DNA from: Perca fluviatilis
Lineage: Eukaryota > Chordata > Actinopteri > Perciformes > Percidae
DNA length: 64,000 nucleotides
Reading direction: 5' to 3'
Assembly (NCBI RefSeq): GCF_010015445.1
Contig: NC_053118.1
Location: 5,349,781-5,413,780, forward strand
Below, piece by piece: positions 8,161-62,375 of the stretch. The notes below the pieces were generated by a model. The model was not told the origin of the DNA. It searched no databases and saw only the letters and a list, made by a program, of their open reading frames with translations. Both the position numbers and the translations under genes were made by a program. Each line of letters opens with the position of its first letter. The stretch's first letter is position 1.

Positions 8161-8696
8161 TTTGATGGAAATAATGCTTGTTTTCGAACTAATGTATCAA
8201 CTGTCATGGAGACTCACGTTAAACCGGTGTCTTCTCAGTTTCAGAGTCAACTAGCTAGCCAGCCTAGTTGAATTTCCCTCCCCCTGCCCTCTCAAACAGG
8301 TAGGCGTGGCTTGGGAGTGGCCTCATACAGCAGCAAAGCAAGTGCATTCTGGGATTTGGTGTCTTTCATCCATATGAGCCAAAAACACATTTTCTGGCTT
8401 ATCTCTGCCTAGAAGGCACCAATTTAAATTTTCTTTTCACATTTCTACTACATTAGTGACCCAATTTAAAGATATATTCAGCTTTCCAGCGGTGAAATTT
8501 CCCTTTTAAGTGTGTACACTACAGAGAGCGATCCTGACCTGAACTGTATCTGTATTTTTACAGAAATAAATGTTTAATGTAAAATCATTTTAAGTGTAAC
8601 ATATAAATTAATTATTTTGCAGAGAGAAACTTTCATCAACAAGAAAGGAAGGAAGAGATAATAATAGAAATATGACTAATAAGAATAATAGCAAAA
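8161..8696. promoter_or_regulatory. Upstream region of the THAP exon with a ZNF143-like site
   Basis: GCATTCTGGGATTTGG at 8344-8359 resembles the ZNF143/SBS core in reverse orientation, about 185 bp upstream of the minus-strand ATG. A GC-box-like AGGCGTGGC lies near 8302. No TATA box is obvious. The assignment is by eye only. Confidence 0.35.
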
Positions 8697-9190
8697 TGAC
8701 GCAAGATTTGGCGTTAACGAGGTAACTTCAGGTTCAACCCAGGGTTTTGTGTATCACGACTGTGGATCACTTGTTATGAAAGATATAGATTTTCAGCGGA
8801 GGTAATTTCGTACAGGGCTATTTGTCGGCTTCTTGAGCAGTGTGTTGCGGTTTGAATTATGTTGTTATATAATTTATTTGCTCTCACAATATCTTACCAC
8901 TGTTGGGGTTGCAACTAAAATAATAGTCTAAAGTAGTTTATGGAAAGCACAGTGTAATTATGGTCAGATCTTGGTCCTGACTGATGGGGAAGTGATATTA
9001 GTAAGCGTTGTGATTTGCGTGTTTACAGTGTCTGTTTTTTTTTGCCAACTGTCCTCCTGTTTTAGGAAGAAGCGACTGTATTGTGTTTTGCCTGTTAAAC
9101 CGTGTCTGTGCTCTTCATATTTATGTAGAATTATAGTTTGCTCTTTTGATGTAAAATATGCGGCTCTGGTAGATGTGTGTGATTGTACCT
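8697..9190 (+). mobile_element. Fragment of the Harbinger-like element found at 42246-44605
   Basis: Long matching blocks are shared with the element at 42.2-44.6 kb: GATTTGGCGT...TTCAACCCAGGGTTTT, GGCTATTTGTCGGCTTCTTGAG, GGTCAGATCTTGGTCCTGAC, and a block ending ATGCGGCTCTGGTAGATG. This copy lacks the terminal inverted repeats and lacks the hAT nested in the other copy. Confidence 0.8.
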
Positions 9191-12538: not shown

Positions 12539-12760
12539 ACAAACTATTTACATTTCTTCAAAAAAGGCCCAAATGTATGCCAAATCTCAAAACAGTGATG
12601 CCATTCTTCTCTGTAGAACGGTTTAGAACTAGCCTGACGTGGTTCTACTGAGATTCTAGTCAGAATGTGAGTCTGAAATCTTCTACAGAGAAGAATGGCG
12701 TCACAGTTTTGAGATTTGGCATATATTTGGGCCTTTTTTGAAGAAATGTAAATAGTTTGT
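12539..12760. repeat. 80-bp inverted repeat inside a transposon copy
   Basis: Arms about 12539-12618 and 12681-12760 are reverse complements with a few mismatches. The 62-base spacer holds the terminus TAGCCTGACGTGG of the element family seen at 32648-33496, whose interior resumes just after the right arm. Confidence 0.88.
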
Positions 12761-14846: not shown

Positions 14847-15309
14847 AGAACCCAACCTTAAAATGCCACCCTTTTGCTCCTCCTCTTCTTCAGTATTCGG
14901 TGACTGAGACTGAGTCCTAAAGGCACAGTGGAATACGGTGGCGGCAGCAGCAGGCATCAAGCTTAGATGAAGGATGAAGAGCCCGGTGCACAGATGCAGG
15001 GATGTGGAGCGCGGGCATGGGCAGGGCAGGGCTGGGGCCAACTGCCTACAGGCCGAACAGCGCATCCCCATCTCCAAAGACGTCATCACTTCGTCCTCTG
15101 CCTCTGCTATGTGGTTCATCAGGGACATCTGTGGCATTGTGTGCGCCGTCATCACCTGGCTGCTGCTGTTGTATGCAGAGTTTGTAGTGCTGTTTGTGAT
15201 GCTGCTGCCCTCCAAGAATCTGATGTACAGCATTGTAAACGGGACCCTGTTCAACATTCTGGCCTTCCTTGCCCTTGCCTCACACCTCAGGGCTATGTGC
15301 ACTGACCCT
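14847..15309 (+). CDS. zdhhc3: zdhhc3 first coding exon (palmitoyltransferase, N-terminus and TM1-TM2)
   Basis: Coding starts at ATG 14974 and runs 112 codons to a phase-0 donor (CCT|GTAAGT). [12 protein letters not shown] is followed by a variable linker, MWFIRD (46-51), TM1 (about 52-77, [18 protein letters not shown]), TM2 (about 89-107) and TDP, the start of the DPG motif finished by the next exon. ZDHHC3 (GODZ) is a Golgi S-acyltransferase that palmitoylates membrane proteins such as receptor subunits. Two acceptor-like sites precede the ATG: a C-rich tract ending TCTCTAG at 14846 and a pyrimidine tract ending CTTCAG at 14893, so a non-coding first exon probably lies upstream. An out-of-frame ATG at 14967 overlaps the start. 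ZDHHC7 is the close alternative, but the next exon's [12 protein letters not shown] favours ZDHHC3. Confidence 0.92.
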
Positions 15310-15521
15310 GTAAGTGGAACTTGTTTGGTGTTATTTATACACAAAAATTAAAAAGTTAAGTGATGCTTTCAACTGTCATTGGCATGCAGACAAGTTTGGG
15401 GTCTTCCATCTTTGTATAATTTGATAAAATTATAAAAGTACGTTTAGACTCTACCTACTTCATTATGATTAATGAGCTGCAAATTATGCTGAAGTTATCT
15501 ACTGTGTGTTCATTTTACTAG

Positions 15522-15646
15522 GGGGCAGTGCCAAAAGGGAATGCTACTAAGGAATACATAGAAAGTCTTCAGCTGAAACCAGGGCAGGTGGTCTACAAAT
15601 GTCCCAAGTGCTGCAGCATCAAGCCTGACCGAGCACACCACTGCAG
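15522..15646 (+). CDS. zdhhc3: zdhhc3 second coding exon (DPG loop and first half of the cysteine-rich domain)
   Basis: Acceptor TTTTACTAG and donor CAG|GTAGGG bracket 125 bases. It encodes [20 protein letters not shown], then [17 protein letters not shown], residues 113-153 plus two bases of Ser154. These cysteines and His form the first zinc-binding half of the DHHC cysteine-rich domain. The exon ends inside that domain, and the matching continuation is about 46.6 kb downstream at 62279, where phase and residue order fit exactly. I saw no competing exon between them. Confidence 0.95.
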
Positions 15647-16140
15647 GTAGGGCATGAAATTCTTACTGCCCCATTAAGGCATTCACAAACCCAATTCCTG
15701 CTTACAGCTGCAGTTTCAGTGTTGGGTATAGGGCTGTACGATTTGAAGAAAAATATGTTGTGATTGCGATTTATAATACTCATTTACGATCGCGATATAA
15801 TGGTATCATGAGTCTACTTGCTTGATTATCAGAGTAAGCCCTGACTGCAGTATGCAGATCGAGGAGTGGCTCAACGTGGGTGGAGCTAAACGTTTGACTC
15901 CGCCCACTTGCCCAATAGCAACCATTGATAGCAACCGAAGAGGAAGAATGTGTTTTTTCCTTTTTTAATAAATCTTTATTAAATCTTTACGATACAAACA
16001 GTACACTACAGAACAAACAATCAGTCATTAATACCAGACTGTTAATACAGAAAAAATGGAGACTGGAGCTCACTTCCCGCGAGTCACGCTTGCTTTCCCT
16101 TTTGTTGTTTTCCTTCACCCAACCGTCCATTGCTGTCTCA

Positions 16141-32289: not shown

Positions 32290-34101
32290 CTATTCCAAAT
32301 ATACTATATGAACGTCAGGCGTTTTGTTAGGAGGAGCAGCTAGCTAGCTATATGTCCCATTCAATACAATGGGAAAAGATCGCTGCTAGCTAGCTACACT
32401 TTCGGCATAACTATAGTAGCTATATTTACAGTTTGAATTTCATCACGGCACTTATATAACCTCTACCCCAAGGTCTTATAAAGCTAACAATGGTGTCAGA
32501 TTTCAATTTAATGAATTTTTGTGAACACTAGCTAGGGGATTCATTAGCTGCGACTGTCCCTTCAATCCTATGTGTACAGATTGCGGCTAGTTAGCTTCAT
32601 TTTTGGCGTAATTAGAGTATATTTACAGTTTGAATTTAGGCATTTAGTAGCCTGACGTGGTCATACTCAGATTCTAGTCAGAATGTGAGTCTGAAACCGC
32701 TCCATTGGGCTGTGATTATGGGGCGTGTTCCAACCAAACCAGGGAAAAAAATGCCTCTGCATTCATTGGATAGACCTCCAACCAATCAGAGCAATCGAAC
32801 TCAACACTGTGTATCGTCTCCATAGCAACCACTCTTTGCACAATGCATTCGTTCTAACTTCCGACTTTTAGACTTTTTTGAAGCTGGATATATCATTTGT
32901 TTCCTGTAAATATAAATGTGGATAACGTTAATGATAGTGACATGCTCGCTACAGTTGCGTTTCTAGAGATGAATCGGCGAAAACACGTTTTATTTCTCCG
33001 ATTCACGACTTTGTTCTAGCGCCGGCGGTCCCTCTCTTCAGTCTCTCTCTATGTCTCTCCACCATATAACGCTCTCTCTTTTCAGTCTCTCTCTATGTCT
33101 CTCCACCATATAACGCTCTCTCTCTTCAGTCTCTCTCTATCTCTCTCCACCATATAACGCTCTCTCTCTTCAGTCTCTCTCTATCTCGCTCCACCATATA
33201 ACGCTACCGTGCTTTCGGGCAGTTGTTGAGGCTCCTCCGCTGAGGATTTTAAAATGAATGCGCTGTCGATATCTTCTGTAACAGACAGGTGGAATCTACA
33301 CATCTCAACAAATTCAACCCAAGCGTTCTTTGGTGACGTGATTGATTCTGTTACTGTTGATCATCTGTCCGACAATCTGATTGGTCCGAACAGATCCTGT
33401 TCGGGCAATAATTGCTTCTCAACGGAGCGACTCCAGAACTAACTTCCCGACCTCGAATTTTGTGGGCGGGGCTAAGTTCGGCTGGCATCCAGGCTAGGCA
33501 TTTAGTAGTCTATTCACCCAAAAAACGGTGACTTTGCGCGGGTACGAAGTGCCACGGGCTGCCAGCCTGACGGAGCTCAATTGAGCTCACAGCAGGCCGT
33601 GGTCTGTGAAGGAAGGCAGGCCAGGCGGTGAGGCAGCAACACAGGCAGCACCGGCCGCTGAAGTCGGACAAAATTTGCAATTAGACATAATTTTTTTGTA
33701 AAATGGCCCATATTTGACCTCTACATAGTTGATTTCTGGCATAAAAGTCTCAGAAGTGAATGTAATGGTAAAATAGCAGATGAACAATGTATACAATTTC
33801 TGAGATCTGCACGACCTAGATTCAGAAGACTAACTAATCTCAGGTCAGTTGTGTAGCCTATGTAAATGTTGGGGCGTGACAAAGAGAGACTAGAGCCAAA
33901 TGAGGAGGAGCCGCCGAGTTGACATCAACTAGGCGGCTTGTTGAGATTTGCCCGTTTTCTGAGGCAGTTTCAAATTGTGAGATTTGCAGAGGAAAGAGGT
34001 GTCATTGGGATTTAGAGGTTCTATGTATGTCCTAGTTACCCACTAAACTGTCATTATTCAACTATGACAAGGTAAAATCGGTTTTGCATTCTATCACCCC
34101 T
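32290..34101 (-). mobile_element. 5'-truncated copy of the AGGGGTGATAGAATG TTAA element, with nested insertion
   Basis: The end GCATTCTATCACCCCT followed by TTAA at 34102-34105, preceded by ACCTGTCATAG-type subterminal sequence, shows the same family as 25040-27165 on the other strand. Near 32340-32480 the 205-bp unit motifs occur in reverse. The opposite terminus is absent. The element at 32648-33496 is inserted in it. Confidence 0.8.
32648..33496. mobile_element. Non-autonomous element, TAGCCTG ends, perfect 9-bp TSD GGCATTTAG
   Basis: It starts TAGCCTGACGTGGTC and ends CATCCAGGCTA. GGCATTTAG occurs at 32639-32647 and again at 33497-33505. A short subterminal hairpin follows the left end (ACTCAGATTC...GAATGTGAGT). 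Inside is an array of four 47-50-bp units (33015-33215; CTCTCCACCATATAACGCTC). No transposase frame. Its termini and 9-bp duplication match the 8.75-kb element at 46364-55110. Confidence 0.88.
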
Positions 34102-42245: not shown

Positions 42246-44605
42246 GAGGCCTGTACTACGAAGCAGGATTTGGCGTAAGCGAGCTAACTTCAGGTTCAAC
42301 CCAGGGTTTTCTGTATCAAGAAGGTGGATCACTTGTTATCGGGTTCAATCGCCATGGTAACTCATGCTGAACGCCTAACCTAGTCGGGAGTAGGTTAAGT
42401 TGGAGATCAGAGATCAACCGGTGTTAAAGCACCGCCTACTGACCAATCAATACTCTGTTGATAACGGCGTCACCGTTCTTAAAGAAGATCAGGCAGACCT
42501 CGGTGCAGAGAGAGAGAGAGGGAGGGGGAGAGAGAGGGGAGAGAGGGGTGCGCTCATAAAAATTAAAACCTTTAGAGACCGACAATCCCGTTAACATTCC
42601 CTGATGGGTATTTTTATGAAATATATATATTTTAATAGGAGGGAATTACAAATCGGCTATTTGTCGGCTTCTTGAGCCGTGTGTCGCCAATGCGCACATC
42701 GGTTTGAATTATGTTTTTATATGTTTTATTTCACGATCGCTTACCACTGCTGGGGTGGCAACTGAAATAATAGGCTGAAGCACAAGCGTAATTATGGTCA
42801 GATCTTGGTCCTGACTGATGGGGAAGTGACCAGTGTAGTCTAATGTAGGCTATTATAGTGGGTGTACTGTATATTGGCCAGAATCTGCCTTTGGGGCCGG
42901 AGGGGGGCATGTCATAGTGGGGGGGCCTGGGTGTCCTCCCCCAGGGAAGTTTTAAGCATCAACGACTTCATTTCCTGCATTTCCATACACTTTAATGCAC
43001 CAATTTATGGTAAAAATACCTTTATTCAGCCTGTATATATGTTAAGAAAAAAGCACGGATGACAATTCAAAATTTAGCAAAAATATAATGTAGGGCTGGA
43101 CCAGAATATTCAAATATTCGTTCGGTGGGTTGGTATTCGATTTGAAAATTTGACATTCGAATATTCGTTTTTTTTTATTTTTTTATTTTTTTTTTATTTA
43201 TTTTCTGCATTTATCTCTCGTTCACACTCCAGTCCAGTTGGTGGCGGTAATGCACATTTAAGTTTGTTTGCCAACCGCCAATAAACTACAAAGAAGAAGA
43301 AGAAGATACTAAACTACCGATATTATGGGATTCTTCACCTTTCCCATTTTCTTCACTAGCGGAGCCAGTTGATATATCAAACTCTTGCCGAAACCAGTCG
43401 GGAGAAGAGCAAAAACACACGATGACGCCCACTTCGAGCATTTAGCAAGCTGGGCAGAGAAGCTAGCGGCGATAACAAGTGCGGAAATGGAAAACTATTT
43501 CGCGTTTTCCGTTGTGATTTGGCCAGAAACCTCAACATTGTGAGGCGAAGAGATCGTTTTGGAATATAAAGCTTGGATATTACATTTCCTTGGACTCTTG
43601 GGGATTTATGAAAATCAAGTTTTGGTCAAAATACCACTTTGTTGCTGAAAGGACAATGAAAACAGGTATGCATGCACTCTCGGCAGCGCCGATTACGGCT
43701 GAATTGTTTTATTTTCTGTTACTTTGTAACAGTTGTGTACATGGCTGTATATTTTAAAGATTTAATGCTATAAAGTTATAAAAACGCTCATGAGTGGAAG
43801 TTTTATCGAGGTTACAGCGACGCCCCAGTCAAGTGTCCTGTTGACGGGACGGTGATCCTTGAGAGGTTAAAAGTTTATTAATTCTGAACGCGTCTGGCCT
43901 GTCTATCTATATTGCACCAAATACAACACTGCACTCCCTTGTGAAGTCGTTTGGATGAAAGGTTCTCAAAATAATCAAAATGCTAACAAACAGACACATA
44001 GAGATTCCTGCCTTTATTAGAGATAATATGTTCAGCCCCCTCTCTCCTAAGCTTCGAATATTCGATACTCATTACTACCGAAGCTTCGAAGCTCAAAAAA
44101 TGGTATTCGGACCAGCCCTAATATAATGGAAAGTAGCATATGTTGTTACGTGTCATCATATTTTTAAGTGGGTATAGCCTATATAGAAATCCTGGAGCTT
44201 ACTATCACGTAGACCACACCACTCGAAGTGATATTGATAGGATAAGCGTTGTGATTTACGTAAAACAGCGTCGGCTTTTTTGCCAGCTTTCCTTCCTGCT
44301 TTCCTTCCTGCATTTTGCCTGTAAAACCGTGTTTGTGTTCTTCATATTTATGTAGAATTATAGTTTGCTCTTCTTGTTTAAAATATGCGGCTCTGGTAGA
44401 TGTTTGCGATTGGTCGTGGTGTGCAAAGACCGCCTCTTTTATGTGAACGCGCGCGCCTCTGAATTGGGAAACCCTGAGTTGACTGAACAAGTTGATAACC
44501 AGCGTCGTGATACAGCTTATGCGGGACCGCGCTTGTTAGGTTAGGTGAAGCCATTATCTGAAAGAGATCCAGGGCATGTTGATCTTGCTTCGTAGTACAG
44601 GCCTC
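42246..44605 (+). mobile_element. Harbinger-like DNA element with 20-bp TIRs, hAT nested inside
   Basis: GAGGCCTGTACTACGAAGCA at the left and its inverse at the right are exact over 20 bases. Internal sequence matches the fragment at 8697-9190. No clear target duplication is visible, and no transposase frame is preserved. Superfamily is from memory of similar fish termini and is uncertain. A GA-rich tract lies at 42506-42545. Confidence 0.8.
43091..44120. mobile_element. Complete hAT-type element, 1030 bp, 8-bp TSD ATATAATG
   Basis: Termini TAGGGCTGGACCAGAATATT and the inverse TGGTATTCGGACCAGCCCTA match with a few differences. ATATAATG stands at 43083-43090 and 44121-44128. No transposase frame. 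Inserted into the Harbinger-like element. Confidence 0.95.
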
Positions 44606-45875: not shown

Positions 45876-45966
45876 GTGATATAAGTGCCGTGACGAAATT
45901 CAAACTGTAAATATATTATAGTAATGCCGGCAGCTAGCACGAGCTAGCTACCGGCAAAATCGAGAC

Positions 45967-46363
45967 AAGAACTCTGGCAAGACCAGAGGCGGAGGACTGC
46001 ATTTTTGTGCATAATGAATGGAGTACCAACCGCAGGATCGTTGCCCAGCACTGCTCACCTGACCTGGAAGCCCTGTCTGTAATATACAGGCCATTTTATT
46101 TACCACGAAAACAGCACACTGCTGTCTACATAGCCCTCGATGCTAACGTTAGCACGTTTGGCTCACTGCTAACCATAGTGAACAAACTGCAGCGCGATCA
46201 CCTGGAGGGGATACATATTGTAGCAGGGGACATTAACAAGGCGTCCTTAAAGTCTGTACTCGCCAGCTTTTTCCAGCATGTAGATTGTGCTACTAGAGGG
46301 AAGAACACACTAGACCATGTATACTCTAACATCAAGAAAGCATACAAAACTGCACCTCTCGCT
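45967..46363 (+). pseudogene. L2/Rex-like LINE endonuclease, left part (interrupted)
   Basis: Reading + the frame gives RGGGLCIFVHNEW, CSPDLEALSVIYRPFYLPR, HIVAGDINKASLKSV and TLDHVYSNIKKAYKTAPL, landmarks of the APE-type endonuclease of L2/Rex-like LINEs. It breaks at Pro-Leu and resumes at 55111 with LPHLGQSDHIQLF. This split frame defines the borders of the 8.75-kb insertion. The LINE copy also contains later stops. Confidence 0.88.
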
Positions 46364-46381
46364 TAGCCTCGTGAGACCGTC

Positions 46382-46419
46382 CTGATCTCGCAAGCTCCAG
46401 TTTTCCACTCGCAGATCAG
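46382..46419. repeat. Left subterminal hairpin of the 8.75-kb element
   Basis: CTGATCT at 46382-46388 pairs with AGATCAG at 46413-46419, 18 bp inside the left end. Confidence 0.65.
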
Positions 46420-46540
46420 TCTGGCATCTTGAGGTAGAGAAAATTTGAAGCCATTCGCCAAACGACCGGGCCAATCAGCATTGGTTTTGAGGCGGGTTTA
46501 GGTGTGACGCAACGAGAAACGACTGTTCAGTCTAAACAAC

Positions 46541-48497
46541 ATGGCGGCTTCCACGGACGAGATGAGTGTAACTATTGCGCAAGTTTTGTCCGAATTAGAA
46601 AGTATTCATTCATTGAAAGCAGAGCAAAAAACGGCACTGGAGGCTTTTCTCGGAGGAAAAGATGTTTTTGCTCTTCTCCCGACTGGTTTTGGCAAGAGTT
46701 TGATATATCAACTGGCTCCGCTAGTGAAGAAAATGGGAAAGGTGAAGAATCCCATAATATCGGTAGTGTCTCCGTTGGTTGCCCTGATGAAAGATCAAAT
46801 CAAAGAGGCTGGGAAGCTAGAAGTCTCTGCCACGCAGCTGGGAGGAATGAACGACACAGACATTCTCCACGGCCGATTCCAGTTGGTGTTTGGTAGCCCT
46901 GAATCTTGGTTACTGAACGAGAAATGGAGGAATATGCTTTCTTCAGAAGTGTACCGTGAAAACTTGGTGGGGATTGTCGTTGATGAGGTTCATGTCACAT
47001 ACAAATGGTAAGTTTAAAAACGTTAACGTTTGCTACGTTACCTAACTTAATTGTATGTTAAACGATGGCATTAGAAGAACCACAAGGTCCTTGAAGCCAA
47101 ACTAACGCTAGCTAGCTAACAACTCAGCTAGCTAGCTAACAACAAGTACTATCAATTTGTTCATAAGCAACGTTGGCTTACAGTCACAAAATGATGAAAT
47201 GTTTTTGTATGTTACATAAACCTCTATATTTATGTTGTATGTCAACGCCAAACAACCTATCCATAGTGATAAGCTAGCCAGCGTTAGCTAACTTAACATT
47301 GCCCTTGCTGTAAATGCTCCTATGCATGTTTTTTAACCTTTACTCAGTAAGACTTATTGTTGGATCTCGTTTTCTGTCAACCAGGGGAGAGGGTGCAAAA
47401 GGGGAGGCTGCCTTCAGGGAGAGCTTTTCTAGGCTGGGAGAACTCCGATCCATTGCCAAAGAAGGTGAGCTAGTTAAAATGGTTATTGGGGGCCAAAGCA
47501 GTGAAGCTCTGTAGTCATCCGTCGTGTTTCTACCTTTTCTTATGTGTGTTTGCCTTTTTGTCTTTCCGGTACACCAGTGTTAGCGTTGACAGCATCTGCG
47601 GATACAAAGAACAGACGCCGGGTGACCAAGCTGCTGCATATGGAGAATGCAACTAAAGTGACTGTGAGCCCAAACAGGACAAACATCAGACTTGGACTGA
47701 CACAGGTTCCTTTCAATGACTTCAGCTGCATGGACTGGGTATTGAAGGAGGTCAAAGATAAGGCACTGTCAATGTCCCCCATCATTATTTATTGCAAATC
47801 ACTGAAGTCAGTAGGAAAGGTGTTCAGCTATATTAAAGCAGAACTTGGTGAAGATGCTTGGATTGAACGGGACCAGGATCATAAGGCTGAAAACCTTCTG
47901 ATAGGAATGTTTCATAGTAAGACACTCACACATCATAAACAACGAGTGCTGGCATCGTTTAATGGAGAGGGGAGCTGCAGAGTTGTAGCAACAACAGCTC
48001 TCGGGATGGGCTTGAATTTTTCACTCTATATGTTCATGTGCATCTGATGTTTGTGGAGAGCCTATTCTTAAACATGAGTTGTTAGAACCAGATGTTTTCA
48101 TTGATCTGAAATGTAGAGCGGTAACAGAAGATGATAAAACCTTAGTCCGGGATATGTTGGAGGAATACAGGAGCTCTTTAGTTAACGACACTGCTCGTCT
48201 CTTCACTAGCAGGTCAGCCTGTACGGGATTTAGCACTGAACTTATTGAGGCAGTGGTAGAACACAGCAAACACATATTTGACTTGGCTTACATTAATACC
48301 TTCCAGTATTCAGAGCACGACATGCAAGAGAAATTTTACTAGTAATTAGTGAGGTTTTTGGTGATATTGAGTTGGATATAGAGCCTACTTCCCACAAGGA
48401 CTGCTTCACAGAGCCAGACATTGACTACACAGGTTATTTTGATGATAAGGATGAGGACTCAAGTGAGATGGGAACCCAACACAGCAGCACAGACTGA
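46541..48497 (+). pseudogene. RecQ-like DNA helicase of the 8.75-kb element, disabled
   Basis: Exons are 46541-47007, 47385-47464 and 47578-48497, with consensus GT/AG junctions whose phases agree. The start AACATGGCGG is a good Kozak site. Motifs in order: motif 0 region (LKAEQKTALEAFL), Walker A LLPTGFGKSLIYQ, SPLVALMKDQ, motif II VVDEVH (DEVH for DEAH), KWGEGAKG in place of the aromatic loop, motif III LALTASA, motif IV IIIYCKS, motif V VVATTALGMGLNF. Motif VI (QxxGRxxR) and the zinc region expected next are gone: at about 48020-48034 the frame changes and jumps to CASDVCGEP. A second frameshift near 48318 separates it from the acidic tail (EVFGDIELD), ending TGA 48495-48497. RecQ enzymes unwind DNA 3'-5'. 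This copy cannot couple ATP hydrolysis normally. Confidence 0.85.
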
Positions 48498-48748
48498 CTA
48501 TCACCACCATTCAGGTGCGGGCCATTAGTGTCTCTTACAACAACTCAGAATATTACTCAACCTGAACTCAACCTAGGTTGTGCTCTTGTGTTTTGTAAAG
48601 ATTTTAAATTACTTTGCCATGTACAGTTTCTTGAACCAATGTAATTGATTAAAGCTGAGTGTCACTGTTGCTCCAAACTGTTTGTTTTCACCTGTTAAAA
48701 TAGATTGATTGATACTTGCATCATTGTGAAACAAAGTTACTATGTGAT

Positions 48749-48779
48749 AATAAAACAATAACACATGGTACCTTTTATT
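48749..48779. terminator. Back-to-back polyadenylation signals of the two convergent genes
   Basis: AATAAA on + at 48749-48754 serves the helicase; TTTATT at 48774-48779 is AATAAA on minus for the DUF6589 gene. The signals are 20 bp apart, so the two 3' ends are tail to tail and probably overlap. Confidence 0.6.
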
Positions 48780-50315
48780 TCTCCTTTTTAATTTAAGTTT
48801 CAGAAGTGATAGAGGTAGTCAACGTGCAAGTTTACAAAGTTTTCAAATGGGTAGGTTCCTCCACTCTTTCAATTTGGACCACATCCCTTCCCATTCCAGA
48901 ACCTGTTCCAGGTGAGACTGTGAGCCAAGTGAGGGGAGAGCGTGGCGTTGACCTGCATGGTCAGTAGGAGTGTGCTGTAGGCATATTGGGTATGTCCGTA
49001 GGCCTTATAGAACAAGAGTGCTACAGTATACAACTTCAACAACCTCTCTCCATCTCCCTCCACTGCATCCTGCATGTTGGACAGAAACAAGCCAAAGCAG
49101 AGTCTTGCTTCTGTGTGTTCTTTTTTGTGGTGCCTTGAACCTGTCCTGGCTGTATCTGGCACAGACACTGAAGCTGCAGCGAAACCATGTTGTTTCCTCT
49201 CATGGTTCTCCCTTACATTCCAGTACTTGTAGACCACCTTGCAACCTGGCATGCGGCATGGGAGCTCCTGTCCCTTTAGAGGCTGTTCGCTGGCAGCGTC
49301 TCTGGCACCGGTTAAAATGTCAGCAGAGTCTGGAAACACACCAAATCTGTCCACAACTTGGGACACAATGTCATGCAGCCAGCTCCTTCTCACCTCCAGT
49401 GAACCAGTCTGGATGTGTTCGGGGATGAAGCCTTCTGGGACATCTGTTGAGACATACAAAAAAGTAATGATGATAAATACATATTTTTGGAGGCAGCAGA
49501 CATGACAAAAATGAGAATTTGAAATATTACATTTAAATAAATGATTAAATTGCTTCAGAAAAAAATATAGTGACCAGTCAGTGGTAGTCAGTGTATAACC
49601 ATGATTGTGCTCAACTGTTTAACCCATTTAAGCGTTGTCATTTTACCATTAAGGCCGGGAAAGCGTTGGTCATTTTGTAGGATTAGTTTTTACTATTTTC
49701 TGAGTTTTCAGGTTTTACAGACATTTTTGGTAGGCATTTTAGGCCTAAATGGGTTTAGTGATGACAATAACTGGATAAACTGAGGTCCACACAGCAGTTC
49801 TTTTAGAAGAACTCGTACCTGCAAAATCCTTCAGTCCAAAATGCTCCATCGCAGCAGCCAGGAAGAGAGCAGCAGTGTCCTTCTGCACAAACTCTTTGTG
49901 CATTGAATGCAGTATGTGGGCCTTGTTTTGCATTGCTGCTCCTGTAAAAAGAAAAAGATTGCGTGTGAATTTTTTTTATTTTTGGAGCGGACTCATGCCA
50001 AATTCATGGTGGCAGGTCTTCATCTCCACTCACAGTACACAAGTACGTTCTCACCAAAACAAGTACCAAGCCTTAATTCATGGTGGCTGGAGTTCATCTG
50101 CACAAAGTATAACCCTGAAAAACATAATTTAAAAAAGGTAGTTAGAAATGGCCCGACAATGCCGACACAAAAACCAGTATGCAGAATATGCGTACGTACA
50201 AAACACACATACCAAGAAGAACAAATAAGACCACAGAGAAAAATGTCCAAATCACTACAAAATGACTTTTTTTTTCATGGTGTCATTCATGATGACCTCA
50301 GCCTGTTCATGTTAG

Positions 50316-50360
50316 AAAGCAGTGTCTCATGATCTGAAAGAGATCATGAGACACTGCTTT
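50316..50360. repeat. Perfect 20-bp-stem hairpin in the DUF6589 gene
   Basis: AAAGCAGTGTCTCATGATCT (50316-50335) and its exact reverse complement (50341-50360) with a 5-base loop. It lies in the interval where an exon of the DUF6589 gene is expected. Confidence 0.95.
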
Positions 50361-53259
50361 GAAGAAGACCTTGTGATATATCTAAAGGCATAGATAAACA
50401 TGAATGAAAAGACGGAGTGCTACAGCAATAGGCTACTGGCAAATGGTGCTTGCACACCTGATTAACCACTTCATCCAATAGTATGGCACAGAAAATAAAG
50501 ATGGTCACCAAACTTCAAGGCTGATATACAAGGCTGGGATGGCAAGGCAGCTATATTGCCTCCCTGGGCTCTTCCTAGACAGGGTACATGTGCAGTAAAG
50601 ATCTACGCTGCACATGCAAAAAGGGCTCATTAGATTGCGTGAGACCATTGAATGGAGGGGTGCTTGTTTACTTTCACATGAGCTCACAGTCCACCCTCTG
50701 ATCGCGCTGCCTGTGTGTGCGCTAAACCTTTTCCTTACCTGTGTGGATCTTTACTGCACATGTACACTGTCAAGGAAGAGCCCAAGCAATATGGCCGCAT
50801 CACCATCCCAGCCCTGTGAACAGCTATTGGCTGTTAATACACTACTGTCTTGGTTAAAGTTTGAGGTCAAACATTTAACTTCACTCACCTCAAACAAGTT
50901 TCAGATTGCATGCCAATCCTCAAACTTGAAAACAAGCCCTTCAAGTCGGTCCTCCACACTTTCCCCTTCAGCAAAGGTCCACTGAAGGTTCCTACTGTTC
51001 CCCTCCGTCAGCCGGTCACCGCCGACTAGAATGCTCTCCAGTCCATCTGGGCCTTTTGGAGTATACCTACATGACACATATGTAGATTTACATGCTTTAT
51101 CAATACACTTCCCTTCAGACCAAGCTGAAGGCATTTCTCCTATCCAGTGCCAAATGCCCATTGTGAAATTTGCCCAAAAGTGAAATTTCCCACCGCTGCC
51201 TTAGTTCACACTTACTCTTTCTGGATGTGCTGTAGAACATCCACCAAGTCTCCAGATTTGTTTTCATCCTTGAAAATAATTCCAAGAGTGTACTATAAAG
51301 ACAGAATGCATGGATTGTAGTGACAAAGGTTTGTGTTTAAAAAAACATACCTGTACATTAGTGACTTCTTAAGCAACAAAGTTACATGAATGTCCAACAC
51401 ACAATACAGTGTATTTCATAAATACTTACATGGGTGGAGACCTCTGACATGATCTTTGAAAACTTGTGAGGGATGTGACGAACCATGACTGTGGAGAAGG
51501 GCTTGAAGGCATCTAAGTGCTGTGCGAGGATCCGGCTGCCCAGGACTACATATTCACAACGCATATGGGCTTGGGTTTCAGGGCCAGGGAGGGAGTCCCC
51601 AATGTCGTACTCCATGATTGGCTGAGTGGGCTTGTCCTTGCTGAGATGATGTGAAGGCACTCTGTCTTCGACCGCAAGGTGGTGGATCCAGTGAAGTGAC
51701 TTGTTCCCTCGGACGACAGACTGGTGGTGTGTGCGAACAAAAAAGTCTAGATTGTCAAATATAATAGCATATGTAGGTGGTGGAGTTGACCATGTTGGTG
51801 ATGCTTCTACTGGCAAAACTCCAACACCCAGATGTGTCATTTCCTCATCCGTCAGTGAACTGAAGGTGAACACAGGTGTGCCATCGGCAGGCCCCTGGTC
51901 AGTCTGCAGATCCGTCTGTAAAGTACTGGTGGTGGAGCCAGTAGCTCCCTGTGTGGCAATGGTGCCATCTGAAGTGCCTTGAGTAGTTTCATCTGTAGAG
52001 AAACAAAGAAAAAAGAAATCAACACAATGGATAAGTGGGCTACACAAGTTAGCATTGAGCGCTGACACATTAATACCCTAAATGCATTAATAAGATCACT
52101 GACAATTGTCATGGATAGAGCAATTTGGCAACATTATTGGCTGGTCCCTCTCACCTGTTAAGATGCACTGCTCCATGCTTTGCGTAGCTGTGTCCAGGTC
52201 CATCGTGTCACTTAGTGCTCTTGTTGCATTAGCTCCCTCTGCATCCATATCCCTGTGTGTGTTTTCCGCTCCTGGAATAGCACGTCCTTCATCCGCATCC
52301 ATGCCTCCATGTTCCTTTTGGGAGTTAAGGAAGACTTCGTAGCCTACTTTCAGTAGCTTTAAGTCTTCGCCGCAGGTCGTTGCTAACTGCTTTTGTTTTC
52401 CAACAGCATGAATGTGTGTGGTGGTTATGCCCAGTTTGCTTAACCTTTTGTAAACTGCTTTTTTCGCCCCACCATACTGAAGCACACTGTTCACATAGTA
52501 GGCAAAGGCTGACAAGTGTGGTTCCCTTCCCTTCAAGGCAGCAGAAGCACAAGTGGGATAGGGAGATCCTTTGGTGATTTGCGAAAACATGGAAAATGTG
52601 AGTGGTGCCATAGACTCGAGATCTGACTGCAAGTTTGCAAAAGAAAATGCCTTCAAATCATCAGCTGATGTCCGCCAAAGCATGAAACCCTTGAGTGGGT
52701 TACAAAGGAACTTGATCTCATCCTCGATGACTTGAAGGATGTCTTGCTTAAGTGGTTCTAAGAGTTCTTTGTGTTTGACTATCTGATTGGCAGCCCATCT
52801 CCAATTCTGCTTTGCAATGTTTTCCACAATGCCTGCTGTGTTTGCTTGACATACAATTCTGTCACCCTTTGGATGTGATGGGTAGTGAATAATAACCTGA
52901 AACACAAACCAAAGGGTTCATTAGTAAACAACTAGTATACTCAGATTCATAAAATTAGGAATATGTTATCCTGGGGAGCCAAATCCTGATACAGCACCTA
53001 GATGCATCAAGCCTTTAGCAACAATGTAGCTAAATTCCCGAGATAAAGATGTTCTCACAAGGCAACCATGTTCATTACAGATCAGGCAGTTTACACTTTT
53101 TTAATTACAGCCAATCTATACACTATAAAGATAAGATACTGGTGTGGGTGATTTGTGTATGTCATATGGATATAAATATCGGGGGCGTGTATATGCTATA
53201 GCTATAATAAATAATAAAAACATGGGGGTAAACAATCAAGGCTGAAGATTCTCTGAACT

Positions 53260-54210
53260 CAGTTCAGTTTAAGTTAAGTTTTATTTTTGTCATTGCTACA
53301 TCATAACAACGAAATATTTTTAGAGCAAAAACAAACACAGGCATATAATTTTAAACTGTTCACCCGTTTGCCTTATCTATATATGTCCCCATGAAAAGAA
53401 TTTACCCATGACTTTGTACCTAATTTAATTTAACTCCCTATAAATACCCCTAGAATGACTTTTTACCTAAGTTAACTTCCCATAAATCCCTCTAGAAAAA
53501 CCCCATAAAGTGCTATGCCCATTAAAGTGCATGGTGCAATCGATAAATCGTTGTAGTGTTTTTGAAGCAATGCAATGTCCAGGTCACAGGTATTGATGAT
53601 GTATGGGCAGAGACATTATGTCACAAAGGGATGTCCGATGGGGAATGGGGGGGGTAGTATGTCCATTAAGCAAACTGACTGCATGGGGGTAAAGACTGTT
53701 GGCCAGCCTGCTGGTTTTGGCCCTGATGGACCTATATCTTCTCCCTGAAGGCAGCAGTTGAAAGAGGTGATGGGCTGGATGTAAATGGTCCTGGAGGATG
53801 TTCTTCACTCGTTTCATGCAGGTGTACACAGTTGGAATGTCTGGGAGGACGACCCCAATGATCTCAGCAGCTCTCACCACTCTGTGTAGGGCGTCCTTCT
53901 CTGCTCTTGTGCAGGCAGCAAACCATACCAGTAACCCGTAGGTCAACACACTCTCCACTGCACAGTGGTAAAAGTTGACCATGAGTCTCTGGGGCAGTTT
54001 TTCCCACCTTAGCTTCCTAAGGACGAAGAGGCGCTGTTGGGCCATCGCTGTGGCAGAGGCGATGGTTTTCCCCCACGACAAATCCTCCGTCACAGTTACA
54101 CCTAAGAACTTAAAACTAGAGACCCTCTCCACCACCTCATTACCAATGAGGAGGTGGAGAATGGGGAATAGGGAATGGGGTTTGATGTTCTCCAGGATCA
54201 TCTTTTTTTA
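53260..54210 (-). pseudogene. L2/Rex-like LINE RT C-terminus inserted in intron 1 of the DUF6589 gene
   Basis: From 54201 downward: VSSFKFLGVTVTEDLSW, AMAQQRLFVLRKLRWEKLP, VWFAACTRAEKDALHRVVRA and LLPSGRRYRSIRAKTSRL, typical C-terminal LINE sequence, then a 3' tail with TTTATTTTTGTCATTGCTAC at 53280. It is a 5'-truncated copy, younger than the host element and on the same strand as the gene. Confidence 0.85.
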
Positions 54211-54962
54211 GTCATTTGGGATCCTAGTAGTTACATTTCCTGCCCGTGTACTAGGCCTAACGTTAAATCAGTCATTTCAGCACTTTGATATGTCAATGTC
54301 ACAATAACAGACTTAACCAAATACAAGTTATGTTTCACATTTAATTGAAATTACCTCTGTCAAACTTTGCCGTGCCGTCTTTGGGATTACATTCTCTGTA
54401 GTCGGCCTAGAGTATTTTGGAGCTGGAGGCGCTGTTGGTATTGGGGGTTGGGGACACGTCATAGAAGGGGTCGGCACTCTGTCCCGTTTTTCTGAGCGTT
54501 TCTTGCCTACGGTTGACGATACGGCACTTGCCTGTAACGTGACGGTTGAAGTTGATGCTTCTGCTGGGCTTGTTTCTTTCTCTGCTTCTTGCCATCTTCT
54601 AAAAACGTCTAAGTCATTCTCTAGTCTACCAAGCAAGCAGAAGCAACGCATGGAAATCCGACCAGATCTAGACACATTTTCAGACAGCGGTAGCCCTAAT
54701 TCTGTTAGCCGCTCGCTAATGCTTTTTTCTCTAGGATCCTTCGTTTGGAATATGAAACGGGAACCTGTAATGGTGCCTTTTATTCGTAAATTCTTGTTAC
54801 ACAAACGGCAAAGATCCTTTAACGACATGTTGTTTACTTGTTGAGCTAACGAACTATGCTTTGCCTGCAGCAGCACGGGTAGCCGGCTTGTGGTTGTATT
54901 TTAATCGTCGCTCTGTTAGTACGTCATACGCTTCGTTGATCTGATTGGTTGATTTGGCACGT

Positions 54963-54989
54963 CTATCACCAACATAGGTGGTGATAGAC
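54963..54989. repeat. Subterminal hairpin near the right end of the 8.75-kb element
   Basis: TCTATCACC and GGTGATAGA form a 9-bp stem with a 9-base loop. Confidence 0.75.
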
Positions 54990-55056
54990 AGATGGTTTAT
55001 CCAATCAGCTAACCAGGATTTTCGCCCCTTCCCAAAAGTTCTCCAACGGAAAGTTC

Positions 55057-55097
55057 CCAGATGGACATGCTGAGCAAATGCGAAGCAGTCCATCTGG
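55057..55097. repeat. Right subterminal hairpin of the 8.75-kb element
   Basis: CCAGATGGAC (55057-55066) pairs exactly with GTCCATCTGG (55088-55097), 13 bp inside the right end. Confidence 0.8.
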
Positions 55098-55110
55098 CGG
55101 AGTCAGGTTA

Positions 55111-55240
55111 CCTCTCCCTCACCTGGGCCAGTCAGATCACATCCAACTATTCCTGATCCCAGCATAAATCCCAGTCAGAAGGACTATCAAAACCTGGCCT
55201 GACACTGCCCTGTCCCAGCTCCAGGACTGCTTCCAATAAG
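55111..55240 (+). pseudogene. L2/Rex-like LINE endonuclease, right part
   Basis: Starts PLPHLGQSDHIQLFLIPA, then a stop and KTWPDTALSQLQDCF. It is the direct continuation of the frame broken at 46363. Confidence 0.85.
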
Positions 55241-62278: not shown

Positions 62279-62375
62279 TGTTTGCAAACGCTGCATACGC
62301 AAGATGGACCACCACTGCCCCTGGGTCAATAACTGTGTTGGGGAGAACAACCAAAAGTATTTTGTGCTTTTCACA
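62279..62375 (+). CDS. zdhhc3: zdhhc3 third coding exon (catalytic DHHC motif)
   Basis: Acceptor CTCTCCCACAG and donor ACA|GTAAGT bracket 97 bases. The first base completes Ser154, then [12 protein letters not shown] (164-167, the catalytic cysteine C167), PWVNNCVGE and KYFVLFT up to residue 186. The DHHC cysteine carries the acyl intermediate in this enzyme class. The remaining exons (TM3, TM4, the TTxE region and the C-terminal tail) should lie to the right, outside the window. Confidence 0.95.

Follow-up and report, generated by a model that had tools for sequence, protein, structure and literature searches.

Two split genes that converge on each other in the genome of the European perch (Perca fluviatilis), one coding for a RecQ-type helicase and the other for a protein of the uncharacterised family PF20231 (DUF6589), raise the question whether they represent neighbouring host genes or the two genes of one mobile element, and to which group of transposons such an element might belong. 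The genes are situated in a window of 64,000 nucleotides, which is the whole stretch of DNA analysed here (C7:5349781-5413780 of the 951-Mb Perca fluviatilis assembly). The best explanation, to which we assign a probability of roughly 0.83, is a dead AcademH-type DNA transposon, in which the DUF6589 protein would have acted as transposase with the aid of the RecQ-type helicase.

Borders and insertion site of the element

The whole transposon covers positions 46364..55110 (8,747 bp, no strand assigned) and runs from TAGCCT to AGGTTA. It is flanked on the left by the 9-bp target duplication CCTCTCGCT (46355..46363) and on the right by CCTCTCCCT (55111..55119), also without strand, which differ at one of the nine positions. 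Among 374 pairs of the hexamers TARCCT and AGGYTA that are spaced 0.2-20 kb apart within the window, 0.04 pairs would be expected to carry 9-bp flanks that agree at 8 or more positions, and two were observed. One of these is the present element; the other is a separate element of 849 bp at 32648..33496 (no strand assigned) with the same terminal hexamer and the exact 9-bp duplication GGCATTTAG, which shares only short matches of 12-21 bases with the 8,747-bp element. Apart from TARCCT, the latter showed no long terminal inverted repeat. Its right end has a strong hairpin potential (z -4.4), while a hairpin at both ends is unsupported, because the left end reached a z of only -0.4.

The insertion site lies within a LINE-like frame on the plus strand, the left part of which is found at 45938..46363 and which resumes right of the element from 55120. 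Judged by eye, the open frame on the left looks like a LINE endonuclease; Pfam gave no match for it. Element bases 1-3 provide its stop codon, and when the element and one duplication were removed in silico, the frame continued from KKAYKTAPLA across the junction into HLGQSDHIQLFLIPA before reaching a stop. Since the LINE-like frame is restored across the empty site, the transposon was inserted into an older repeat. On a larger scale, zdhhc-like exons are present on the plus strand at both sides, namely at 14974-15309 and 15444-15647 and as a further DHHC exon near 62307, and hence the element appears to sit within an approximately 46-kb intron.

Gene content and decay of the window copy

The helicase gene is encoded on the plus strand, with its first exon starting near the left terminus. 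Exon 1 (46541..47007), recognised by Pfam and GT/AG splice sites, contains the Walker A motif TGFGKS and a DEVH box. Exon 2 (47385..47464) is defined by GT/AG splice sites, and exon 3 (47578..48021), which extends through GMGLNF, by its GT/AG junction, Pfam and the comparison with relatives. C-terminal coding remnants follow in more than one frame (48022..48525, plus strand), and the polyA signal AATAAA is located at 48749..48754 (plus). Pfam matched the domains DEAD (E=1.6e-14) and Helicase_C (E=3.7e-5), and the 37 sequence matches in PDB are named RecQ, BLM, WRN, Q1, Q4, Q5 or just ATP-dependent DNA helicase. RQC and HRDC domains were absent from the Pfam matches of the two helicase relatives scanned, and phage records showed no match to the helicase DNA.

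The DUF6589 gene is read from the minus strand, beginning at 54828 near the opposite terminus. Its exon 1 (54355..54828) harbours ZAD-like cysteines, one of which is lost, and is followed by exon 2 (52155..52896), exon 3 (51430..51992) with FDNLDF and the first candidate Asp, exon 4 (51216..51292), exon 5 (50889..51066) with GGDRLTE and the second candidate Asp, exon 6 (49820..49941) and the last exon (48869..49443), which contains a C2H2-like finger. The polyA signal AATAAA of this gene is found at 48774..48779 (minus), leaving 19 bp between the two signals in the middle of the element, close to the 20 bp given in a first-pass annotation made from the sequence alone. The GT/AG exons and the flanking duplications around 46364-55110 also bear out its description of two convergent split genes in one bounded insertion. 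A LINE-like fragment is nested in intron 1 of the DUF6589 gene (53584..54207, minus) and matched Pfam ALKBH8_N (E=2.2e-10), a match that is common in LINE reverse transcriptases.

Both genes are decayed. After GMGLNF, the helicase lacks a stretch that counts 86 residues in its P. flavescens counterpart P0019 and there includes GRAGR, helicase motif VI, and the frame changes at this place. The DUF6589 gene has an in-frame stop in exon 5 (between DWHAI and NLFE), a frame break in exon 6 and, in the last exon, no counterpart of the relatives' LDLHLEHLN segment; likewise, a SARDHGTL segment was not found in this gene of the window. Because both genes carry deletions and broken frames, we conclude from the sequence that this copy is dead and incapable of acting alone. 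The first-pass annotation had advised looking for an intact copy; in the stretches retrieved, the other four perch coding loci described below are likewise incomplete or diverged.

Features of the DUF6589 family

The assignment to PF20231 is carried by relatives rather than by the broken copy itself, single exons of which gave E-values of 0.0026 and 0.024 (17 and 13.8 bits) against a curated cut-off of 27 bits, whereas six relatives of the joined DUF6589 protein scored between 79.5 and 152.4 bits. Altogether 46 relatives were found (16, then 30 more), those named coming from fishes, amphioxus, one hydrozoan and one mussel; one scan of viral contigs revealed no DUF6589 relative. Simple patterns were counted in these 46 proteins, many of them partial, and recovered the first Asp motif in 26, GGDR in 30, DWHA in 32, the C2H2 finger in 20, the Glu motif in 17 and the ZAD-like cysteines in 20. 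The C2H2-like motif proposed earlier is therefore a recurrent pattern among these often partial relatives. Support for the ZAD-like motif is weak: its cysteine pattern likewise recurs in 20 of the 46, and the Pfam family zf-AD matched just one relative (P0166), below the cut-off.

Nine relatives have all three candidate acidic residues, and in eight of them the spacings are 150-162 and 307-317 residues, P0143 being the exception with 121 and 268. We infer that the candidate residues in FDN, GGDR and LHLEH may form a DDE site. Structure prediction contributed little, as the models of DUF6589 relatives were poor, with a mean pLDDT of 44.4 for P0008 (15 rows) and 52.1 for P0014 (44 rows). A fold search of PDB with the low-confidence P0014 model returned 172 matches at E<=10, none of them at 0.001; the P-element transposase appeared among them at rank 50 (E=4.9) and was discounted. 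A profile search of PDB with DUF6589 gave nothing below E=0.36.

Copies in the perch genome and linkage of the two genes

The genome was queried with the 5' 644 bp of the element, which yielded 1,405 first-look candidates, 40 of which were scored; after exclusion of the window locus, 39 copies were examined. Both ends are kept in 33 of these, while in 6 of the 39 the right end fell below the score limit, one of them (L002) being the 5' end of the coding copy on C11. The two-ended copies start with TAGCCT in 26 of 33 cases, end with AGGTTA in 27, and 27 of them measure 501-513 bp. The 9-bp sequences on either side agree fully in 19 copies, differ once in 5 and twice in 2, and match at five positions or fewer in 7, so that 8 or 9 of the nine positions agree in 24 of the 33. 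When the flanks were shifted by 11-30 bases as a control, 8 of 9 was reached in 1 of 165 trials, within an AT-rich repeat, and no exact flank repeat of another length (6 to 13) was detected in the surveyed perch copies. The 9-bp duplications and TARCCT ends noted for the window element are thus a property of many copies.

The pairwise identity of the 33 copies ranges from 89.5 to 97.1% (median 94.5%). In the short copy L006, element positions 1-341 are fused to 8573-8747, the two parts overlapping by a few bases. The short copies are internally deleted derivatives, which would have been moved in trans. Taken with the borders and the Pfam domains, these genome-wide copies uphold the initial view of a two-gene DNA transposon that combines a RecQ-type helicase with DUF6589.

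The first-pass annotation had also stated that the view would fall if the two genes were unlinked in other copies. A query with the helicase found five perch loci (the window, C11, C15, C3 and C1), and at all five a convergent DUF6589 gene lies beside the helicase; at the four loci other than the window, the two are separated by about 3.8 kb (C11), 0.36 kb (C15), 0.08 kb (C3) and 14.7 kb (C1). The proposal that the pair recurs in convergent orientation was therefore verified at these loci, but its second part, that both genes are enclosed by ends and a duplication, did not extend beyond the window, since among the 2, 0, 9 and 0 end pairs tested at the four other loci none with a duplication (<=2 mismatches) enclosed both genes.

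Relatives of the pair occur in several fishes and in amphioxus, and those of the DUF6589 protein additionally in one hydrozoan and one mussel. Going by locus tags alone, consecutive tags join the pair twice in the amphioxus B. belcheri (Bbelb_119360/119370 and 373990/374000) and twice in the goby M. chulae (WMY93_012698/012699 and 002922/002923); since the six Bbelb tags encountered all have a final zero, their numbering is taken to advance by tens. Furthermore, contig size is given for 41 of the 46 DUF6589 proteins, and 12 of these share it with one of the 120 helicases listed out of 877 found (hand count), a weak sign of linkage. Four of these 12 have consecutive tags and two have tags far apart, namely Bbelb_077770 and 072100 as well as WMY93_000017 and 001158, which are not adjacent despite equal contig size.

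Classification of the element

AcademH is reportedly a lineage of the Academ superfamily treated by Kojima in 2020 in Mobile DNA 11:15 and, going by the title of that article, is said to occur in animals and fungi. In a later paper, duplications of 9 or 10 bp are ascribed to AcademH and of 3 or 4 bp to AcademX, a difference tied to helicase versus nuclease (PMC10045372), and DEAD and Helicase_C domains are linked to AcademH, KolobokH or Helitron in the accessible part of a second source (PMC10799480). The available portions of three other articles add no further defining feature (PMC10294476, PMC12210899, PMC8290104). The perch element encodes a superfamily 2 helicase with DEAD and Helicase_C domains, and its copies have 9-bp duplications that are exact in 19 of 33 cases and agree at 8-9 positions in 24 of 33. 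In this comparison by description, made on helicase and duplication length with the excerpts at hand, no differing feature was found. AcademX belongs to the same superfamily but is described there with duplications of 3 or 4 bp and with a nuclease in place of the helicase, whereas the perch element has 9 bp. Since the helicase and the duplications are as described for AcademH, we call the perch element a new family of AcademH, by description. The earlier suggestion that no described superfamily has such features is therefore not supported, in view of the AcademH features given in the excerpt (PMC10045372). We infer that DUF6589 is the AcademH transposase; the term DUF6589, and hence a link to AcademH, is absent from the literature searched.

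The same absence would fit a separate superfamily, in which a RecQ helicase was independently joined to a DUF6589 transposase that also makes 9-bp duplications. This is an unlikely alternative, although the AcademH likeness was drawn from descriptions, and although the Kolobok lineages, in the text available, indicate that RecQ helicases became associated with transposases repeatedly (PMC9587614). The perch element shows the helicase as well as the duplications of 9-10 bp that the excerpts report for AcademH. We regard it as improbable that the animal helicase-DUF6589 elements form their own superfamily, apart from Academ, in which a DUF6589 recombinase with zinc fingers would cooperate with a RecQ helicase in such a way that the 9-bp stagger is determined by strand unwinding and not by a second nuclease.

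Much less can be said for a Kolobok-type element. Kolobok targets TTAA, whereas the perch duplications are 9 bp long and vary in sequence, which contradicts this identity. The likeness is confined to the RecQ helicase beside a DDD/E transposase, which the accessible text reports for KolobokH only from fungi and for the red-alga Kolobok-1_CCri with the helicase on the complementary strand (PMC9587614). A MULE (MuDR) element that acquired a helicase is just as hard to credit, being contradicted by the absence of any Pfam match to the MULE transposase domain in the 10 frames or 8 relatives scanned; long inverted repeats are missing, too. Duplications of about 9 bp are typical of MULEs, and this length alone speaks for them. 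Finally, two neighbouring host genes without any transposon are scarcely conceivable, for although the helicase bears the name Werner-like or RecQ1 in public models and is fused to zdhhc exons in one perch model, the target duplication with its empty site, the gene pair at several perch loci and the survey of many copies with their own duplications contradict this reading, including the syntenic single-copy genes that the first-pass annotation had considered.

Possible mechanism and gene annotation

For the AcademH-type transposon, a cut-and-paste mechanism with the DUF6589 protein as transposase is most likely. Its ZAD-like and C2H2-like zinc fingers would recognise the ends, and a DDE-type site with the candidate residues in FDN, GGDR and LHLEH might cut and join the DNA, leading to insertion with a 9-bp stagger. 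The RecQ-type helicase, whose gene has the opposite orientation, may open the DNA at the ends or at the target.

The uncharacterised family PF20231 (DUF6589) is hereby tied to a mobile element and predicted to be a transposase. Moreover, our data suggest a transposon origin for many of the helicases that fish gene models call RecQ1, RecS or Werner-like. The labels Werner-like and RecQ1 are also those attached to the helicase by public gene models. Among those of P. fluviatilis, P0017 matches the helicase exons without any difference over its whole length, and P0025 consists of a helicase part and a zdhhc-like part that are both identical to the window, a perch case in which a gene model joins helicase exons to zdhhc-like exons.

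Related helicases and gene models

In the cyprinid Siphateles boraxobius, the closest helicase among the matches listed (P0018) is 89% identical to the perch protein, whereas the closest DUF6589 protein (P0001) shares only 58% identity with its perch counterpart. The two are encoded on separate contigs, and the sequences may therefore reflect two families, an exchange of parts or a horizontal transfer. Among the best 120 of 877 helicase matches, many fish and amphioxus entries to which public databases give the names RecQ1, RecS or Werner helicase look like transposon helicases. In the public perch gene model P0025, helicase exons 2 and 3 of the main transposon (47385-48047) are fused with zdhhc-like exons, which lie at 14974-15647 and near 62307 in the window. 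Either this model was therefore joined wrongly, or it includes an exon that has been trapped.

Other elements in the window

A second element with TAGCCT ends (32648-33496, 849 bp) is flanked by an exact 9-bp duplication and probably represents another AcademH-like family, one that lacks recognisable genes. A 49-bp piece at 12630-12678 is 94% identical to its first part; a right end accompanied by a duplication was not found for this piece within about 3.4 kb downstream. Furthermore, a 1,030-bp element at 43091-44120, which we take to be hAT-like, has ends of the TAGGGCTGGACC type and lies between two identical 8-bp copies of ATATAATG. It carries in reverse orientation 105 bp (43313-43417) with 99% identity to helicase exon 1, apparently a fragment of the gene acquired by capture.
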